A stretch of DNA of 55,032 nucleotides from a virus, in IMG/VR virus record IMGVR_UViG_3300045020_000011, positions 1 to 55,032 of that record, one strand, 5' to 3'. Positions 20,254-31,139 of the stretch are shown here, piece after piece. Position 1 is the first letter of the stretch. Each line of letters starts with the position of its first letter. The notes under the pieces were generated by a model that saw nothing but the letters and a program-made list of their open reading frames with translations, ran no database searches and was not told where the DNA came from. The position numbers were made by a program, and so were the translations under genes.

Positions 20254-20282
20254 ATCTTATGCATACTTGAAGCCTCTGTCAA
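20254..20282 (-). promoter_or_regulatory. Sigma70-type promoter for ssb
   Basis: On the minus strand TTGACA (20282-20277) is followed by exactly 17 bases and TAAGAT (20259-20254), then an AT-rich stretch. It overlaps the last codons of the polymerase C-terminal gene and lies about 30 bases upstream of the ssb TTG. It shares its -35, spacing and -10 with three other promoters in the window. Confidence 0.82.
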
Positions 20283-20988
20283 CCTTTTTCATGTTCAGCA
20301 TGTCAGGGCCGACCTTGACCTCTCCGGCCAACGGTACATTCCACCCACACTTGAACACAAGGTTGAGGTTGTCAACAAGATCGTCAAACACGTCGTACAT
20401 CAGGTCAACCACCTGTGAGACATATTTCTTTGGTGCATCTACGACAATAGAATCGTGGACGGTCGAGATTAAAAAGACCGGTAAACCAAGCGAACGAAGA
20501 CGCCTCGCGAAGCTTATGCGGGCAATCATCATAACATCGGCACCAGTACCCTGTACCGGATAGTTTGTTAGCACTGTCCACGGAATCTTTACGTTTCCCC
20601 AATTGTCCCTCCCCAGAGGTATGCTCCATTGTCTTCCGGTTGGTCCCGTAATTGGTTCACCCCGTACCACGCTTTGACTCCACGCCACATGACATTCATG
20701 AATTCCTGCGTACTTAGCAAAGAACTTACGCCCAACTTCGTCCCAGTACTTGGGGTCGGTGGAGACGTGCATAAACGCCGGATCATTTGCAAAGCTGAAT
20801 CCACTTCCTCGGAATATTGTTCGGAAGAGATATATCTTTGCAATGAGTCTAGATGGTAGTTCAAAAGCCTTTTCGTTGAGCGAGTGCGTATCTTGGCCTT
20901 GCTTAACCTCCGTGATCCCAACTTGGTCTTGGCTAAGCTGGAGGATGGTACGCCATTCGAGTTGACTTGCATCACATGCGATAAGCAT
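20257..20988 (-). CDS. Family A DNA polymerase, C-terminal palm/fingers fragment
   Basis: The 243 residues hold all three polymerase motifs: motif A ACDASQLEWR (D6, Q9, E11), motif B RLIAKIYLFRTIF (R47, K51, F55) and motif C VHDS (H178, D179, S180). The fragment is in the same frame as the preceding gene: ...FND, TAA, ATG... with no base between stop and start, so a single TAA codon breaks one polymerase gene. A weak AGTAGG lies 12 bases upstream of the ATG. Either two polypeptides assemble, or the stop is read through, or it is a mutation or sequence error. Confidence 0.85.
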   Translation of the reverse strand: MLIACDASQLEWRTILQLSQDQVGITEVKQGQDTHSLNEKAFELPSRLIAKIYLFRTIFRGSGFSFANDPAFMHVSTDPKYWDEVGRKFFAKYAGIHECHVAWSQSVVRGEPITGPTGRQWSIPLGRDNWGNVKIPWTVLTNYPVQGTGADVMMIARISFARRLRSLGLPVFLISTVHDSIVVDAPKKYVSQVVDLMYDVFDDLVDNLNLVFKCGWNVPLAGEVKVGPDMLNMKKVDRGFKYA

Positions 20989-22128
20989 TTAGTCATTGAA
21001 CCTACTTATGAAGATGTCTTGAGCGGCTCCGTCGAGATTCTGGAGGTTGGGGTTGCTGCTGCTGAGGCGACCGGTTTGTGCCACGCACTGGTTGAATTGT
21101 CCGTGCAACATTCCCTGCTCCCAGTTGCCATTGACATTTGCATTAAGTAACCCTCGATACGTCTTAGTGAGTAGAGAATCGAGTCTAACTTGTCGTTGGA
21201 TAAGCTCGATGATTCGCTTAGTAGCTCCTCGGGGACGCAGTTTAAGAAGAGTGTCTGCATTTGTCGCAAATACTCCTGGCTTTTTAAGCTCAGAACCTCG
21301 AAGGGGTTCGACCAGTCTAGGGAGTTCGTGTCCAATTTCTACCTTTTTATATTTTGGTTGTCCTGCTCGTTCACCTGTTTTGAAGAACCCAATATGCTCC
21401 TGACCTTCTGTCGTAATAGTCCCGCCATACAGAAAGGCAGACAACTGATCCCCAGACCCAAAATTAATAGGGATGCCAGGGTATATTCCAGATAGTTCAT
21501 CCGTGATCTGTTTAATCTCCTGTTCAATCTCTTGAGCGCGTTTATCACAAACCTCATGATCAAACCGAATCCCATTCCATTCCATTTCCTCAAGTATCAG
21601 TAGGTCCATGCACTGTAGGCGACACAATCGTTTCTGCTGCGGTGACATACACTCCTGTTGGCGTTGATACAAGCTCAACGTTAAGCGAGCGTCTTGTTCC
21701 GCATACTCTGCAAGTTCGTTCCAGGGTATGTCCTCCGTTTGGATTCCATTCTTCCAATACTTCTCCGCAATCACATCGATCTTGGTTCCTAAACCATAAC
21801 GTGCGCAAGATTCGTCCAGGCTTGGATATCTCCATGTTTGGTTACTCAGGATGAACTCTGCGACTTGGCAGCACCAGATTGGTTTGTCTCCCCAATCGAC
21901 TCCGAGTTTTCTAAGAACGTGGAGGTCGTATTTGAAATTGAAGCCAACGAGAATATCAGCCTGTCCAACTCGATTCGCAAGTTCAGCAATTGAGTTCTCG
22001 TCTGTCTTAGCTGCTCCCGTGTCTTTACTAGATGCCCAAGAATAGCAAATGTTTTTGAATCGTCTGTCAAAGGGATTCCCCTTATTCCATGTGTTGTTTT
22101 CAGTATCAATCGCTAGAGCATTAGACAT
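20989..22128 (-). CDS. Family A DNA polymerase, N-terminal proofreading exonuclease/thumb fragment
   Basis: The 379 residues contain a DnaQ-like 3'-5' exonuclease: D8 and E10 (AIDTEN), N64 with D68 (NFKYDLHVL) and Y142 with D146 (YAEQDARLT). They continue into the polymerase thumb and the TGRLSSSNPNLQN motif (352-364) that precedes motif A. The frame ends at TAA 20989-20991 just before motif A, which is on the next fragment. Exonuclease activity alone is possible; DNA synthesis needs the second piece. The start overlaps the upstream small gene by eight bases. Confidence 0.87.
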   Translation of the reverse strand: MSNALAIDTENNTWNKGNPFDRRFKNICYSWASSKDTGAAKTDENSIAELANRVGQADILVGFNFKYDLHVLRKLGVDWGDKPIWCCQVAEFILSNQTWRYPSLDESCARYGLGTKIDVIAEKYWKNGIQTEDIPWNELAEYAEQDARLTLSLYQRQQECMSPQQKRLCRLQCMDLLILEEMEWNGIRFDHEVCDKRAQEIEQEIKQITDELSGIYPGIPINFGSGDQLSAFLYGGTITTEGQEHIGFFKTGERAGQPKYKKVEIGHELPRLVEPLRGSELKKPGVFATNADTLLKLRPRGATKRIIELIQRQVRLDSLLTKTYRGLLNANVNGNWEQGMLHGQFNQCVAQTGRLSSSNPNLQNLDGAAQDIFISRFND

Positions 22129-22467: not shown

Positions 22468-22631
22468 AGTTCTTTCTCCTCTGTCCAGCCACAAGTTTTA
22501 CAGGTACGGCGTTGATAAATATATCCGGCACTTGGTTGCCATTGGTTGTCATTCTTAGCACCGCAATGCTCACACCTCCAAGTAAACTCTACAGGGTTAG
22601 TCTTAAATCGTTTCAGGAAATTAAAGATCAC
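22464..22631 (-). CDS. Small zinc-ribbon protein, GTG start (55 aa)
   Basis: I chose the GTG at 22631 because GGGAG lies five to nine bases upstream; the longer frame starts deep in the helicase gene. The product has CEHC (about 20-23) and CKTC (about 45-48) with a QW...YIYQRR core, a typical four-cysteine zinc ribbon. It overlaps the helicase end by 11 bases. The role is unknown; small zinc ribbons near replication genes are frequent in phages. Confidence 0.72.
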   Translation of the reverse strand: MIFNFLKRFKTNPVEFTWRCEHCGAKNDNQWQPSAGYIYQRRTCKTCGWTEEKEL

Positions 22632-23844
22632 GGTATCTCCCAACCATAGGTTCAATCAAAGTTTCCCACCGATCATGACGCTTCTGTGGGTCTGTATCTT
22701 CATCACCAGGAAGCTTGTTCTTACTCAGATGCATAAAGCGTAGATTGTCATAGCCAACATCGTTCACCTTTCCGATACCAAGAATCCAGTCCGCCTCAGC
22801 TTGTTTGCTTGTTTTGGCGTTAGCAACATTGGCCATAGATAGCCAACGCTGGCCTTCACCCGACCCATCTGCTTGGCATACCCCAATGATAGGACAATGT
22901 TCTTTCGCAAGTTCACGAGCCCAGATGTAAATGGAACCCAATCGAAGGTCTTCCCGGTCGTTATCAAACCCTTTGATCTTATCGATTTGATCGAACACAA
23001 CGAGAGACGGTTCATACTTAGCACAGAGTTTTTCGACTTGACTCTGCGTGATGCTTGCGCTGTCCACAAGTTTGATCTTACCTTGGGTTGCTTCATGATA
23101 ACGTTTCCTATTCCCTTCCAGGTCTGAGTACAGTTGAGTGAGGTCCAACCCCAAAGCTGCTTGGTAGCAGCGCAGCATTACTTCTGTTCCGACTTGCTCG
23201 TTGTTGAGCCAGAGTATTGGGCGTGCGCATTGTGAAGCCATATGAGTAACTTCACTTGCCAGGAAAGTGGTTTTCCCTGTTTCTGGTCGAGCAAATACGA
23301 ATCCAAAGTTCCCTTTACGAATGGACCCAAGAGCTTTATTGAGAGAGTTAAGACGCCATCGAAGACCTTCCACACTACGACTTGCATTAACAAGCTCAAC
23401 GAGGTCATCACTAACGAAATCAGCTTCACCTTCACCATCATCTACCTCTATTGGTTTACCTAGTTCTGTGTACTTATCCAGTATCTTTTCGACACTGGTT
23501 CGACCTTCGGCTGCTTCATATGCTTCAAGGGACAACTCACGCAGTAACCGAATCTGCCTGAGACTACCGATCAACTTCGCAATGCTTTCTTCGTTTGCTT
23601 CGTTCTTCTTGAGGTTGTCAAATACGCCTTGGAAGAACTCAAGGTCTCGCCGGTTTACAGAGAAGTACAGATTGGAAAGATCGTCTACTGACAGATCGGC
23701 ACTGTCTTCTTGCTTGAAGTGTGCGTCGATTGTACGGACGATGCCTTGGAGGTCCTTACTAAAATCAGAGACCTCTAGTTGGTTCCTGTGCTTATTGTAA
23801 TTGTCCTTGCTGAGAAGGAGTTTCAGTATGGAAATGTCCACCAT
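22621..23844 (-). CDS. DnaB-like replicative DNA helicase
   Basis: The product has 407 residues. The N-terminal ~130 residues are helical; the RecA-type motor follows. Walker A is RPETGKTT (186-193), Walker B is LVVFDQID (D285), and GVCQADGSGEGQ fits the DnaB H3/sensor region. Unlike T7 gp4 it has no fused primase; the primase is a separate gene at 26678-27439. It unwinds DNA 5'-3' at the fork. Its start is overlapped by 53 bases by an HNH gene. Confidence 0.92.
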   Translation of the reverse strand: MVDISILKLLLSKDNYNKHRNQLEVSDFSKDLQGIVRTIDAHFKQEDSADLSVDDLSNLYFSVNRRDLEFFQGVFDNLKKNEANEESIAKLIGSLRQIRLLRELSLEAYEAAEGRTSVEKILDKYTELGKPIEVDDGEGEADFVSDDLVELVNASRSVEGLRWRLNSLNKALGSIRKGNFGFVFARPETGKTTFLASEVTHMASQCARPILWLNNEQVGTEVMLRCYQAALGLDLTQLYSDLEGNRKRYHEATQGKIKLVDSASITQSQVEKLCAKYEPSLVVFDQIDKIKGFDNDREDLRLGSIYIWARELAKEHCPIIGVCQADGSGEGQRWLSMANVANAKTSKQAEADWILGIGKVNDVGYDNLRFMHLSKNKLPGDEDTDPQKRHDRWETLIEPMVGRYRDL

Positions 23845-24250
23845 ATATTTTTAATATTCCATTAGCAAATGCGATTAATTGTTCTGGTGTGGCATTTGAT
23901 TTCATCTGGTTTGCTAAATGGGAGATAATCTGAATGTTATCTCTAGTGTAAGCTTTGCTGGAATCAATACGGTCAATTGAGGCGTTAGACCACACATGCC
24001 CCCGGCCCGTGATGTTTGTCAGCTTGCAACCCAGATATGGACAGTACTCAGGAATCACAATATCCTCTTTCGTAATCTCAAAATCAATACCACGTTTCTT
24101 AGCGCGGGATTTGGCTGAGATTACCAAGCGGTTTGCTTGATCCTTTGCACGATGCTTGCGTGAAGCTATTAGATTTCTCTCTCGATACTTATCTTTATTA
24201 GCGTGATAATAATCAAGATGGTATTTTTTCTTCTTCTGTGTATCTATCAT
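23792..24250 (-). CDS. HNH-type (His-Me) homing endonuclease
   Basis: The product has 152 residues. After a basic helical N-terminus (ASRKHRAKDQANRL), the core is PEYCPYLGCKLTN, then SNASIDRIDSSKAYTRDNIQIISHLANQMK, a common phage free-standing HNH-like nuclease pattern. Its 3' end overlaps the helicase start by 53 bases. Such genes usually spread by cutting alleles that lack them. A second, degenerate HNH-like gene precedes it. Confidence 0.8.
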   Translation of the reverse strand: MIDTQKKKKYHLDYYHANKDKYRERNLIASRKHRAKDQANRLVISAKSRAKKRGIDFEITKEDIVIPEYCPYLGCKLTNITGRGHVWSNASIDRIDSSKAYTRDNIQIISHLANQMKSNATPEQLIAFANGILKIYGGHFHTETPSQQGQLQ

Positions 24251-24677
24251 CGATCAAGACCTTGTTTGTAATGAATTCTTCTAGGGCTTGTTTTACCTGA
24301 GCTTTAGTAAACTGTGCTCGTCGAACTACTTTACTCCGGTGGACTACTGGAGTGGGGTTATTCAACTTCTCGTTGTTACTCCGATAGGTTGCCAGCATTT
24401 CTCTCTGTGTTGTTAGCTTTAGATTCTCCCATTTGAGGTTAAGAGAGTTACCGTCTTTGAATCCGATTGGTTGGTCAGGTATCTCACCAGTCATGAAATA
24501 CCATGCAATTTTAGTACAGGATATTTTATAATCCTTAAATGTAACTACTCGATAACCTCTTGTTGAGGTAGTACCTGCAAGGTGTTGTCTACCTTTCTTT
24601 GCTACTAACCAAAGGAAGTTACCAGAATCAGGTTCATAAACCAACTGCTCTTTTAGTTCTTCTAAAATCTCTTTCAT
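24213..24677 (-). CDS. Degenerate HNH-like protein
   Basis: I use the ATG at 24677, the first in the frame downstream of promoters and leader; a TTG at 24710 is less likely. The 154 residues follow the layout of phage HNH proteins (LVYEPDSGNFLWL... GYRVVTFKDYKISCTKIAWYFMTGEIP... GFKDGNSLNLKWENLKLTT). However, the usual DH pair before DGN is GF here and the H of the HRLAW motif is replaced (TKIAW). It is therefore probably catalytically inactive, possibly a DNA-binding remnant. Confidence 0.7.
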   Translation of the reverse strand: MKEILEELKEQLVYEPDSGNFLWLVAKKGRQHLAGTTSTRGYRVVTFKDYKISCTKIAWYFMTGEIPDQPIGFKDGNSLNLKWENLKLTTQREMLATYRSNNEKLNNPTPVVHRSKVVRRAQFTKAQVKQALEEFITNKVLIDDRYTEEEKIPS

Positions 24678-24698
24678 TATATTTATAGATATGCAGGG

Positions 24699-24736
24699 AA
24701 GAGAAAACAAACTAAGAGAGCCTTGCGACTCTCTCT
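24699..24736 (-). terminator. Leader hairpin with T-rich tail (attenuator-like)
   Basis: Read on the minus strand, AGAGAG and CTCTCT form a stem around a loop with TCGCAAGG, followed by TTAGTTTGTTTTCT. It lies only about 15-20 bases after the expected start of the transcript from the 24758-24786 promoter and before the first gene. It may be a partial terminator or an attenuator for the replication genes. Confidence 0.6.
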
Positions 24737-28587: not shown

Positions 28588-28760
28588 TTCTTCAAGTCCG
28601 TAAGAAGAAGTTTAGCCTTCTCATATAGAGAAGTGTCCTTCGAGCCGAAACCCCCCATCAAATGGGATGCTCCAGCCGCAATGATCTGGCGAAACTCAAT
28701 AAGTTCTTCCGCCGTTTCAATAACAATTGTGACAGGTGCAAATTCTTTTGTGATCTTCAC
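28584..28760 (-). CDS. Small protein, GTG start (58 aa), between GcvH-like and ATP-grasp genes
   Basis: The start is GTG at 28760 in a GTGA overlap with the ATP-grasp stop; the TGA at 28584-28586 overlaps the next ATG (ATGA). The product MKITKEFAPVTIVIETAEELIEFRQIIAAGASHL... YEKAKLLLTDLKK is a compact strand-helix protein. It fills the gap precisely. Related short proteins are often seen in phages, but I give no function. Confidence 0.75.
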   Translation of the reverse strand: MKITKEFAPVTIVIETAEELIEFRQIIAAGASHLMGGFGSKDTSLYEKAKLLLTDLKK

Positions 28761-29584
28761 TTGAGCTTCTCCACGAACGCTTGCGCGTACTTGTCTACGG
28801 TTGTGCCTTCGAGACCAGGCGCGGTATTAACTTCAAGACAGTAACACCAATTCCGTTTGGCGTTATAAAGGAGGTCACATGCTCCGAAGTCGAGGCCCAA
28901 TTCTTGCACTGCCCGGATCGCCATCTCTCTAAGTCCAGTAGGCTCGGTAATGTCTTCACGACAATAGACCCATCCGGTGTGATGATTACGTACCTGAAAG
29001 TTGGCTTCACCTTCGTAGTCGTTCCGCTTACGCTTTTCTTGTACATCGATCACTTCTCCAAAGGCAACATGAACTCGAAATTCCTTTTGCTTCTTAACAT
29101 ACTGCACATAAAGAGGCGCAGGAACCACATCTTCCACCTTGCCAGCAAGAACAATCCCATCACCACTGTGACCACTGAGCTTAGTACGACAAACAACAGT
29201 ATGTCCGGAGTTAATCCATTGCTTAGCAACGTTATGATCGACTGTAAATTCAGGGATACGTATGCCATCCTTTCCTTTCAGGAGATTAAAAGTACTAAGC
29301 TTGTTACTTGCATTACAAACAGCTTGCGCTTTGTTTACAACTACTATGGGTTCTCGAACATCTAGGTTGTTGGAAAGCCAACTGCTGTTCCCCCAATTAA
29401 TAATTTTGTGCCACTCACGCGGAACAAACGTCGGGTTAGGCCGATCAGTGAATAGTCGGCGAACTTTGTACCCCAGGTGTTCCCCCATCTTTCTTGCTAG
29501 TTCCCTCGCTGAGTTCGACCCGATTTTGTACGGGACGATGACGCAGGGGGCTCTCCCCAGCTTCACGGGCTTGTTTGAAGGCAT
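28757..29584 (-). CDS. ATP-grasp ligase
   Basis: I use the ATG at 29584 with GGAG upstream; it overlaps the amidotransferase end by 140 bases. The 275 residues show an ATP-grasp fold: VVCRTKLSGHSGDGIVL (130-146, ATP-binding lysine and loop), YVQYVKKQKEFRVHV (159-173) and LDFGACDLLY... CLEVNTAPGLEGTT (231-262; the E251 and N253 metal ligands). Such enzymes join a carboxylate to an amine via an acyl phosphate. It is closest in layout to RimK-like and phage peptide-ligase proteins. With the two amidoligases it forms the core of the cluster. Confidence 0.88.
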   Translation of the reverse strand: MPSNKPVKLGRAPCVIVPYKIGSNSARELARKMGEHLGYKVRRLFTDRPNPTFVPREWHKIINWGNSSWLSNNLDVREPIVVVNKAQAVCNASNKLSTFNLLKGKDGIRIPEFTVDHNVAKQWINSGHTVVCRTKLSGHSGDGIVLAGKVEDVVPAPLYVQYVKKQKEFRVHVAFGEVIDVQEKRKRNDYEGEANFQVRNHHTGWVYCREDITEPTGLREMAIRAVQELGLDFGACDLLYNAKRNWCYCLEVNTAPGLEGTTVDKYAQAFVEKLK

Positions 29585-31139
29585 CTTTTTCTTCTCCTGA
29601 CAGTGCTTGTTCGACACAACTTGAACACATTAACTTAACAACGTTCTCCGGAAATGCCATTCCCTTCCCGAGAGTGGACGTGAATGATACGGAAGTGAAC
29701 TTCGGATTGGCTTCGTGCATCTTCTTGCCACACTTCATGCAGGTACAATTGCAGACACCATATCCCCATGCGGCCAACGGTATAATTACCTTGTTGTGTG
29801 TAGCAACGACGCTTGCCAATCGCATATCTGCAACGTAAACGCTAGTCCCTCCTACCGTGTTCGTAACATACAGAATGCGGCCAGTACAATACTTACCAAC
29901 CATCGCCGCAGGGTCTGCTTCATCGGGAAAGCAACCAATAACATCGACAAGAGACTCACCCGGTTCGTGCAGCTTGCCACGAAACTTGAAGTGCTGCTGT
30001 GCCAGGGTAATCTCATGAGGCTTGAACAATACCATCCGTCCTTTCATCAAGGTTGGATGTTGAATCTGAATCCGCCGCGTATTGTTCTCCGCATCTCGAT
30101 CAACTTCACTGGCTTTCTTCTTGGGAACGAGGGTAAGGCCAGACGAATTCGGTGGACTTAGATGGTTCTCGCTCTCGCTCTTGCTGCTGTCGTTCTGCCC
30201 ATCTTTTACCTGCGTGAGCGCACAACTTTTCGAGCCCATCCCCTTGGTTTCGACGGACTCTTTTATGATTAAAGGGCAGTCATCACTCGACCTCCCTTCG
30301 CTCATGTACTCCCAGTAATCTCCTTCGAGAGAATCTTCGACCAAATCTTTGGTCACGTTGTTGGGCTGAGTAACCGTTTCCTTGTAGTCCCGCCCCCACT
30401 TGCCATTCCCCTTGTACGTCGTGGAATAGCTGGAATAGGAGACGACCGGCTTCTCAAGCTTACGAGAATCCATCTTGCCCTTCTGATCGAATTCAAGCAA
30501 TTCAAATGTGGGTACTTCAACCACATTCTCGATCTTCCGGTTCTGACGGGACAACGGCAACGCCGCAATCATCGGTTCGCTCGACAACACAAACATGTTG
30601 TCAGATTCAATGATAAACAACGGACGTTCATCATTCCGTACTGCAAAGAGCTTCTGCTTCTCCGTGTCATACCACACAAGAGCATATGCCCCACGCAGCT
30701 TGGGCAATACTTCTTCGATGGGACTCTCTGACAACGCATGCGCAATCGCGTTACTGTCCACGTCAAACTGCTTGTCAGACAGCTTGCTATGGTCCCACAG
30801 AGTACCGTTGTGGACGAGAATGATGTTGTTCTCGACGAATGGGTGTGCATTCTCCGTTGTTACAGCACCCTTCGTTGCTGCGCGATTGTGCCCAATCACC
30901 AGCCGACCACGACTCACCATCGAAGTGCGAAAGTCCGCCCATTCCTTCGTGCGGAATAGATTGAACGGGTTGCTACCAAGCTTCAGCACTTCTGCTTGCT
31001 TGTTGCGGAATGTGGTAAAGACTCCCGTTGAATCCTTACCACGCAGCGAGTTGACGATCAGCAATTGCTCCAGCAAATCGGCATCACGTTGCCAGAAACC
31101 TTGATCAGTTCGAGCGATCAGTCCAATAATGCCGCACAT
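29445..31139 (-). CDS. Class II glutamine amidotransferase with C-terminal zinc domain
   Basis: The product has 564 residues. The Ntn-hydrolase domain has the nucleophile C2 (MCGI), RGKDSTG (33-39), GHNRAATKG (83-91) and HNGTL (110-114). It should release ammonia from glutamine. Neither the asparagine-synthetase nor the sugar-isomerase partner domain follows. Instead there is a low-complexity stretch (about 290-350) and a domain with CNCTCMKCG and CSSC cysteine pairs. It presumably feeds ammonia or an amide to the ligases encoded next to it. The last 140 bases overlap the ATP-grasp gene. Confidence 0.87.
   Translation of the reverse strand: MCGIIGLIARTDQGFWQRDADLLEQLLIVNSLRGKDSTGVFTTFRNKQAEVLKLGSNPFNLFRTKEWADFRTSMVSRGRLVIGHNRAATKGAVTTENAHPFVENNIILVHNGTLWDHSKLSDKQFDVDSNAIAHALSESPIEEVLPKLRGAYALVWYDTEKQKLFAVRNDERPLFIIESDNMFVLSSEPMIAALPLSRQNRKIENVVEVPTFELLEFDQKGKMDSRKLEKPVVSYSSYSTTYKGNGKWGRDYKETVTQPNNVTKDLVEDSLEGDYWEYMSEGRSSDDCPLIIKESVETKGMGSKSCALTQVKDGQNDSSKSESENHLSPPNSSGLTLVPKKKASEVDRDAENNTRRIQIQHPTLMKGRMVLFKPHEITLAQQHFKFRGKLHEPGESLVDVIGCFPDEADPAAMVGKYCTGRILYVTNTVGGTSVYVADMRLASVVATHNKVIIPLAAWGYGVCNCTCMKCGKKMHEANPKFTSVSFTSTLGKGMAFPENVVKLMCSSCVEQALSGEEKDAFKQAREAGESPLRHRPVQNRVELSEGTSKKDGGTPGVQSSPTIH

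Follow-up and report, generated by a model that had tools for sequence, protein, structure and literature searches.

A family A DNA polymerase divided between two adjacent genes just ahead of motif A in a clade of phages

The polymerase locus and its two halves

What does a stop codon mean when it stands in the middle of an otherwise complete replicative polymerase? The window analysed here (the whole 55,032 nt of IMG/VR record IMGVR_UViG_3300045020_000011) raises this question on its minus strand, where only a single TAA, followed directly by an ATG, breaks the family A DNA polymerase that the frame from 22128 to 20257 otherwise encodes in full. The upstream gene, polN (20989..22128, minus strand), encodes 379 amino acids comprising the 3'-5' exonuclease, the thumb and the first part of the palm, and ends in the TAA at 20991-20989. 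The downstream gene, polC (20257..20988, minus strand), begins with the ATG at 20988-20986 and encodes, in 243 amino acids, the remaining palm and the fingers with motifs A, B and C. The junction (20986..20991, minus strand) thus has a spacing of 0 nt and keeps the same frame, so that the in-frame TAA followed by ATG that an earlier note had reported is indeed present at 20991-20986.

Both halves retain their catalytic motifs, as the same note had proposed. The polN product carries ExoI (D8xE10), ExoII (N64xxxD68), ExoIII (Y142xxxD146) and the TGRLSSSxPNLQN motif, and its part of the palm extends to TGRLSSSNPNLQN...ISRFND, TGRLSSSNPNLQN being a palm motif. Motif A (D386), motif B (R427xxxK431xxxF435) and motif C (H558-D559) are found in polC. 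All of these residues are invariant in a 17-row alignment in which the polN and polC of relatives were read through in-frame gaps. Motif C is read as HDS (window polC residues 178-180) as opposed to the HDE of most family A polymerases, and HDS is conserved in the clade alignment. Pfam assigns DNA_pol_A_exo1 (PF01612) and the N-terminal part of DNA_pol_A to polN and the rest of DNA_pol_A to polC, with PF00476 above the cut-off in both halves. No second polymerase A match was found elsewhere in the window record. Furthermore, pN/pS values of 0.27-0.41 in both halves against five close relatives, for which synonymous sites are near saturation, indicate that both genes are under purifying selection.

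The joint product was modelled with AF2 as a single joined chain, the stop being read as Lys for modelling only. The model (pLDDT 90.8, pTM 0.86) presents a complete Pol I/Klenow fold, with a VIA Z of 35.7 over 536 residues (4f3o) and a Foldseek match to 1kfs at 4.2e-27. The break falls in the modelled turn just before strand 380-387, which carries the motif A aspartate, and in a profile alignment the start of polC is matched with the Klenow YVIVSADYSQIE segment. The Klenow alignment and the model place the break inside the palm, and not between thumb and palm as had been suggested earlier. From fold and conservation, it seems that the two chains would come together as one Klenow-like enzyme, each contributing to its palm sheet.

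The polC 5' ends of relatives show whether polC has a start of its own. The first polC column contains 146 ATG, 8 TTG and 5 GTG codons, while most of the few other 5' ends apparently have a start codon no more than a few codons upstream. In the window, the Shine-Dalgarno-like AGTAGG (21001..21006, minus strand) lies 12 nt before the polC ATG, where it forms Ser-Arg codons near the end of polN, with a duplex energy of -5.1 kcal/mol. Pairing with the anti-Shine-Dalgarno sequence at polC starts has a median of -5.15 kcal/mol, as compared to -1.5 kcal/mol in controls (p 5e-19), and in overlapping arrangements the signal is located within the last polN codons. These data argue that the polC start is a real start. 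Ribosomes would terminate polN at the TAA and initiate polC at the adjoining ATG, a coupled translation that AGTAGG, within the last polN codons, would probably aid.

Conservation of the split and competing explanations

Relatives were collected by tblastn with the read-through protein against phage records, and IMG/VR scans added several hundred further loci. The polymerase is annotated as two genes in all five of the nearest tblastn matches (Alcaligenes phage QDWS535, MEP402, MEP401, ctOsX528 and ct2os315), among which MEP401/402 and QDWS535 are cultured phages carrying the split. A near-identity search of phage records with the middle 24 kb of the window produced no match. In every collected relative with both halves, the break falls at one and the same residue, five positions ahead of the motif A aspartate; since they all share this position, the split is not a matter of chance. 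No fused ORF was found among the 124 distinct loci with both halves in the first set, nor within the clade in the enlarged set of 202 distinct polC 5' ends. Either half alone served as a query, for which reason fused genes would have been as readily detected. Fused polymerase genes occur only in the more distant HMO-2011, HTVC033P, CRP-2, StenR_269 and SWcel-C56, and a FastTree phylogeny separates the split clade from the unsplit HMO-2011-type polymerases with a support of 0.97. The split is, therefore, old and common to a large clade of phages, MEP401/402 among them. The placement of the break just ahead of motif A, which the earlier note had described for the window, holds in the relatives too; far from standing alone in carrying a stop, the window has no unbroken counterpart among the collected loci of its clade.

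What varies is the distance between the halves. Across 150 measurable spacings it ranges from -17 to +3598 nt, with a median of 179.5; it is zero or negative in 39 of them, and exactly 0 in three (the window, L228 and L275). The window is thus among the most compact forms of a lineage-wide gene-in-pieces polymerase. In ct2os315, 3.6 kb with whole genes, including a cytosine methyltransferase, separate the halves, and in L021 and L031 a glutaredoxin-like gene lies between them. Many relatives, though not all clade members, possess a conserved small ORF of 60-90 aa at this position, belonging to one of two families that are perhaps related (for example, L125:3008-3277 and L103:8678-8878). The members scanned returned no Pfam or PHROG match, and a search of the window for a homologue of this small gene found none. 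Its product is possibly a partner of the polymerase.

These observations also bear on other explanations of the interrupted frame. Read-through or recoding at the TAA, with a single 70-kDa chain as part or the whole of the product, is suggested by the shared frame of the two halves, which only one TAA separates. However, the halves are in different frames in 36 of the 39 loci with a spacing of zero or less, whole genes are interposed in others, and polC has its start-codon column and Shine-Dalgarno signal. TAA is, moreover, an ordinary stop in this genome, as previously noted, terminating 22 of 40 long, non-overlapping window ORFs and being the commonest stop of the long ORFs there. We accordingly regard read-through, an alternative raised earlier, as improbable. 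A sequencing or assembly error, also raised before, or a decaying pseudogene might be suspected of a single metagenomic record, but such an origin is very unlikely given that the split is carried by all collected relatives, cultured isolates and 150 loci included, that every motif is intact with both halves under purifying selection, and that the record offers no other polymerase A match. It is just as unlikely that the halves work independently, as a free exonuclease and a polymerase with which it forms no complex. The exonuclease is a separable domain, and the annotation of PHROG 403 is that of a separate exonuclease subunit; yet the thumb and the palm motif RLSSSxPNLQN also reside in polN, and polC, which has neither the thumb nor the part of the palm ahead of motif A, is therefore not a complete polymerase by itself.

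An intron or intein interrupting one polymerase gene, as has been suspected for MEP401/402 (PMC10580990), is the explanation to which we attach the least credence, even though some relatives do carry true group I introns in this gene. At the gathering threshold, neither the window nor any of 12 loci gave an intron match in Rfam; the negative outcome in the loci was a consequence of that threshold, and a permissive search found group I introns (RF00028) in L206 (5.6e-10), L215 (2.3e-08) and L107 (3.5e-05). The sites, which coincide with three other conserved motifs, are at PNLQN (polN profile position 362; L107 and, more weakly, L035), after polC residue 56 (L206, L215 and, more weakly, L205) and after polC residue 146 (a weak match in L211). 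At these other sites the coding sequence is joined cleanly and continues with neither a stop nor a new start, unlike at the split between polN and polC, where the halves carry their own stop or start and the polC start column consists almost only of start codons. The window has no Rfam match and no intervening DNA, its spacing of 0 nt leaving no room for an intron, and relatives have overlapping halves or interposed whole genes, by which an intron at the window split is ruled out. A split intein was likewise rejected, there being no extra sequence, and the end of polN and the start of polC falling at conserved polymerase residues. Interruptions at polC residue 56 are also seen in L096 and L110, and at residue 146 in L210 and L216. 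Finally, L216:4786-4822 matches the abiF small RNA family (RF03085) at 48.4 bits, compared to a gathering score of 37.

We thus consider it highly probable that the window encodes a two-subunit family A polymerase: two real, adjacent genes, translated in a coupled manner, with products that would assemble, divided by an old split that likely originated from an endonuclease cassette. The analysis shows the two ORFs, the conserved split site, the start-codon behaviour, the selection on both halves and the complete joint fold. That there are two polypeptides which would have to reassemble, as the earlier note had foreseen, gains support from a split that is clade-wide and from the lack of any fused ORF among the collected loci of the clade.

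Interrupted motif A and homing endonucleases in relatives

Motif A of the window is intact. In 26 of the 202 distinct polC 5' ends, in contrast, motif A is interrupted by an indel of 1-10 nt, usually introducing an in-phase stop and almost always located between codons 8 and 12 (L114, L214, L293, L350, L031, L033, L112, L118, L210, L129, L131, L328, L004, L021, L093, L113, L022, L100, L220, L225, L240, L252, L255, L216, L007 and L137), while L215 represents a further case. The interrupted codons are read as CTT TAG CTT GAG/GAA in L114 and L350, CTT TAG CTA GAG in L293, CTT TAA CTG GAA in L214, and CTT TAG CCC GAA in L129, L131 and L328; shorter forms are CTT T GAG in L031 and L033, and CTT TA GAG/GAA in L112, L118, L210, L252 and L255. 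Among the matches of the Shine-Dalgarno analysis, no other small polC breaks were found besides those at the intron positions and an artefact of a divergent outgroup.

Taxa with an interrupted motif A are dispersed across the phylogeny. Downstream of interruptions shared by two loci, pN/pS is 0.105 (L129/L131), 0.18 (L112/L210) and 0.23 (L031/L033), pointing to strong purifying selection there. Sequencing error was rejected as the cause of most of these indels on account of their clustering at codons 8-12, their presence on unrelated branches and this downstream selection; the single-nucleotide changes of L007 and L137 could nevertheless be errors. In 20 of the 26 interrupted copies, no start codon is present in the resumed frame before Trp12, and 13 of the interrupted records, several of which are fragments, contained no second intact polC by which the broken gene would become dispensable. 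In the four clearest cases, the stop is followed by a leucine codon to which the take-off tRNA could pair again, and hopping would bring motif A back to its native length; in some copies the stop is flanked on either side by synonymous leucine codons. If they are translated, the interrupted copies are candidates for natural stop-hops or frameshifts.

An endonuclease gene or remnant ending at most 16 nt from the polC start accompanies 9 of 24 interrupted copies as compared to 0 of 157 intact ones (p 3e-9), as scored with profiles that were built partly from the motif A endonucleases themselves; a PHROG scan of ten larger gap ORFs of intact loci revealed no endonuclease. The genes directly preceding an interrupted polC are L214:3460-3972, L225:2572-2958, L100:8324-8788, L022:1580-2083, L220:27-401, L255:1435-1956, L293:2448-2906, L328:2505-2975 and L137:2567-2992. 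Several of them lie within an initial copy of motif A, and the beginning of polC is then repeated behind them. The endonuclease ORFs of L214 and L225 open with the N-terminus of polC (MAIVNADAKS and MPIINVDAKS), after which the polC start recurs with synonymous differences; L100 and L022 display the same layout of an endonuclease and then a second copy, with other junctions.

The window itself has no endonuclease gene at the junction. A free-standing endonuclease gene of PHROG 3322 (23792..24250, minus strand), the family to which several of the endonucleases directly upstream of a motif-A-broken polC also belong, is located away from the split, upstream of the gene for a DnaB-like helicase (22621..23844, minus strand), the replication-module neighbour upstream of polN. 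A second endonuclease gene, HNH_3 (24213-24710, minus strand), is adjacent to it. Elsewhere in the window, a RimK-like ligase gene (PHROG 2599; 28757-29617, minus strand) adjoins a glutamine amidotransferase-like gene (PHROG 4736; 29445-31139, minus strand), the two overlapping by ~170 nt.

Judging from the relatives only, an endonuclease cassette is the most likely origin of the split. A homing-endonuclease cassette would have inserted in the region coding for motif A and supplied a new downstream start, the intervening DNA having since been lost in the window. In relatives, the cassette would bring a new Shine-Dalgarno sequence, a start codon and about ten codons of motif A, and would end in the 1-10 nt insertion with its in-phase stop, over which the ribosome would hop (CTT TAG CTT GAG, CTT TAA CTG GAA, CTT TAG CTA GAG). 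Such hops would be natural equivalents, over a short range, of the bypass in T4 gene 60 with its mobA cassette. The insertion would also shield its carrier from its own endonuclease. Whether motif A is subject to an ongoing invasion by such cassettes, with the stops being hopped and the window representing the end state after cassette loss, is a proposal that we hold to be evenly poised. The endonuclease-linked stop insertions of the relatives are, at present, the most novel lead to emerge from this locus.

Relation to known split polymerases and genes in pieces

The 2023 description of split polymerases of the MEP401 type suggested an intron (PMC10580990). Similar to the window, the Methylophilales phages MEP401 and MEP402 and their relatives (Zobellviridae) possess one ORF for the exonuclease and N-terminal polymerase and a separate C-terminal ORF, with the split at the same residue and a similar order of replication genes. 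However, an ORF of ~78 aa lies between their halves, whereas the window has 0 nt and is devoid of this small gene. The split was consequently known in outline for such phages; the present analysis extends it and excludes an intron for the window, thereby removing the intron explanation for MEP401-type phages. Vibrio phage ICP2 (Icepovirus) also encodes its family A polymerase in two adjacent ORFs, but its break lies ~14 residues upstream, right after NLQNISN, and ICP2 branches outside the clade; its split is probably independent. The loci L010 and L011 correspond to Vibrio phages ICP2 and Saratov-12, both of which are split ~14 residues upstream and fall outside the clade.

The findings imply that an essential replicative polymerase can persist, throughout an entire clade of phages, in the form of two chains that meet within the catalytic palm. 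They also furnish a natural series of relatives with closed junctions, interposed genes, endonucleases in motif A and stop-containing copies of motif A. The insertion in T4 gene 60 carries an in-phase stop. Insertions with a stop are likewise found early in the downstream gene in relatives of the window, though these bypass candidates measure 1-10 nt as against 50 nt in T4 gene 60. In T4, a topoisomerase gene was split by an endonuclease (mobA), and ribosomes bypass an insertion located early in gene 60, the downstream part (PMC5009743, PMC2988022); the endonuclease and repeated polC start of L214, L225, L100 and L022 follow this layout. Short natural stop hops have long been presumed, with no in-frame case known according to a review (PMC5009743); if translated, the stop-bearing motif A copies would supply such hops.

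Essential replication enzymes in pieces have been tied to homing endonucleases in T4 genes 39/60 with mobA, Aeh1 nrdA with mobE and Aeromonas phage 25 gp43A/B (PMC2988022, PMC5009743). In the cases tested, the products assemble (PMC2988022, PMC5009743), and function is retained after the split in Aeh1 NrdA and in phage 25 gp43A/B (PMC2988022). The present system differs from these in the enzyme affected, a family A polymerase divided at motif A, and in a window junction that is free of an endonuclease. It also shares with them the existence of an unbroken gene in related phages, a role that is filled here by HMO-2011, HTVC033P and CRP-2, the nearest unsplit relatives, which carry the same motifs but in one ORF.
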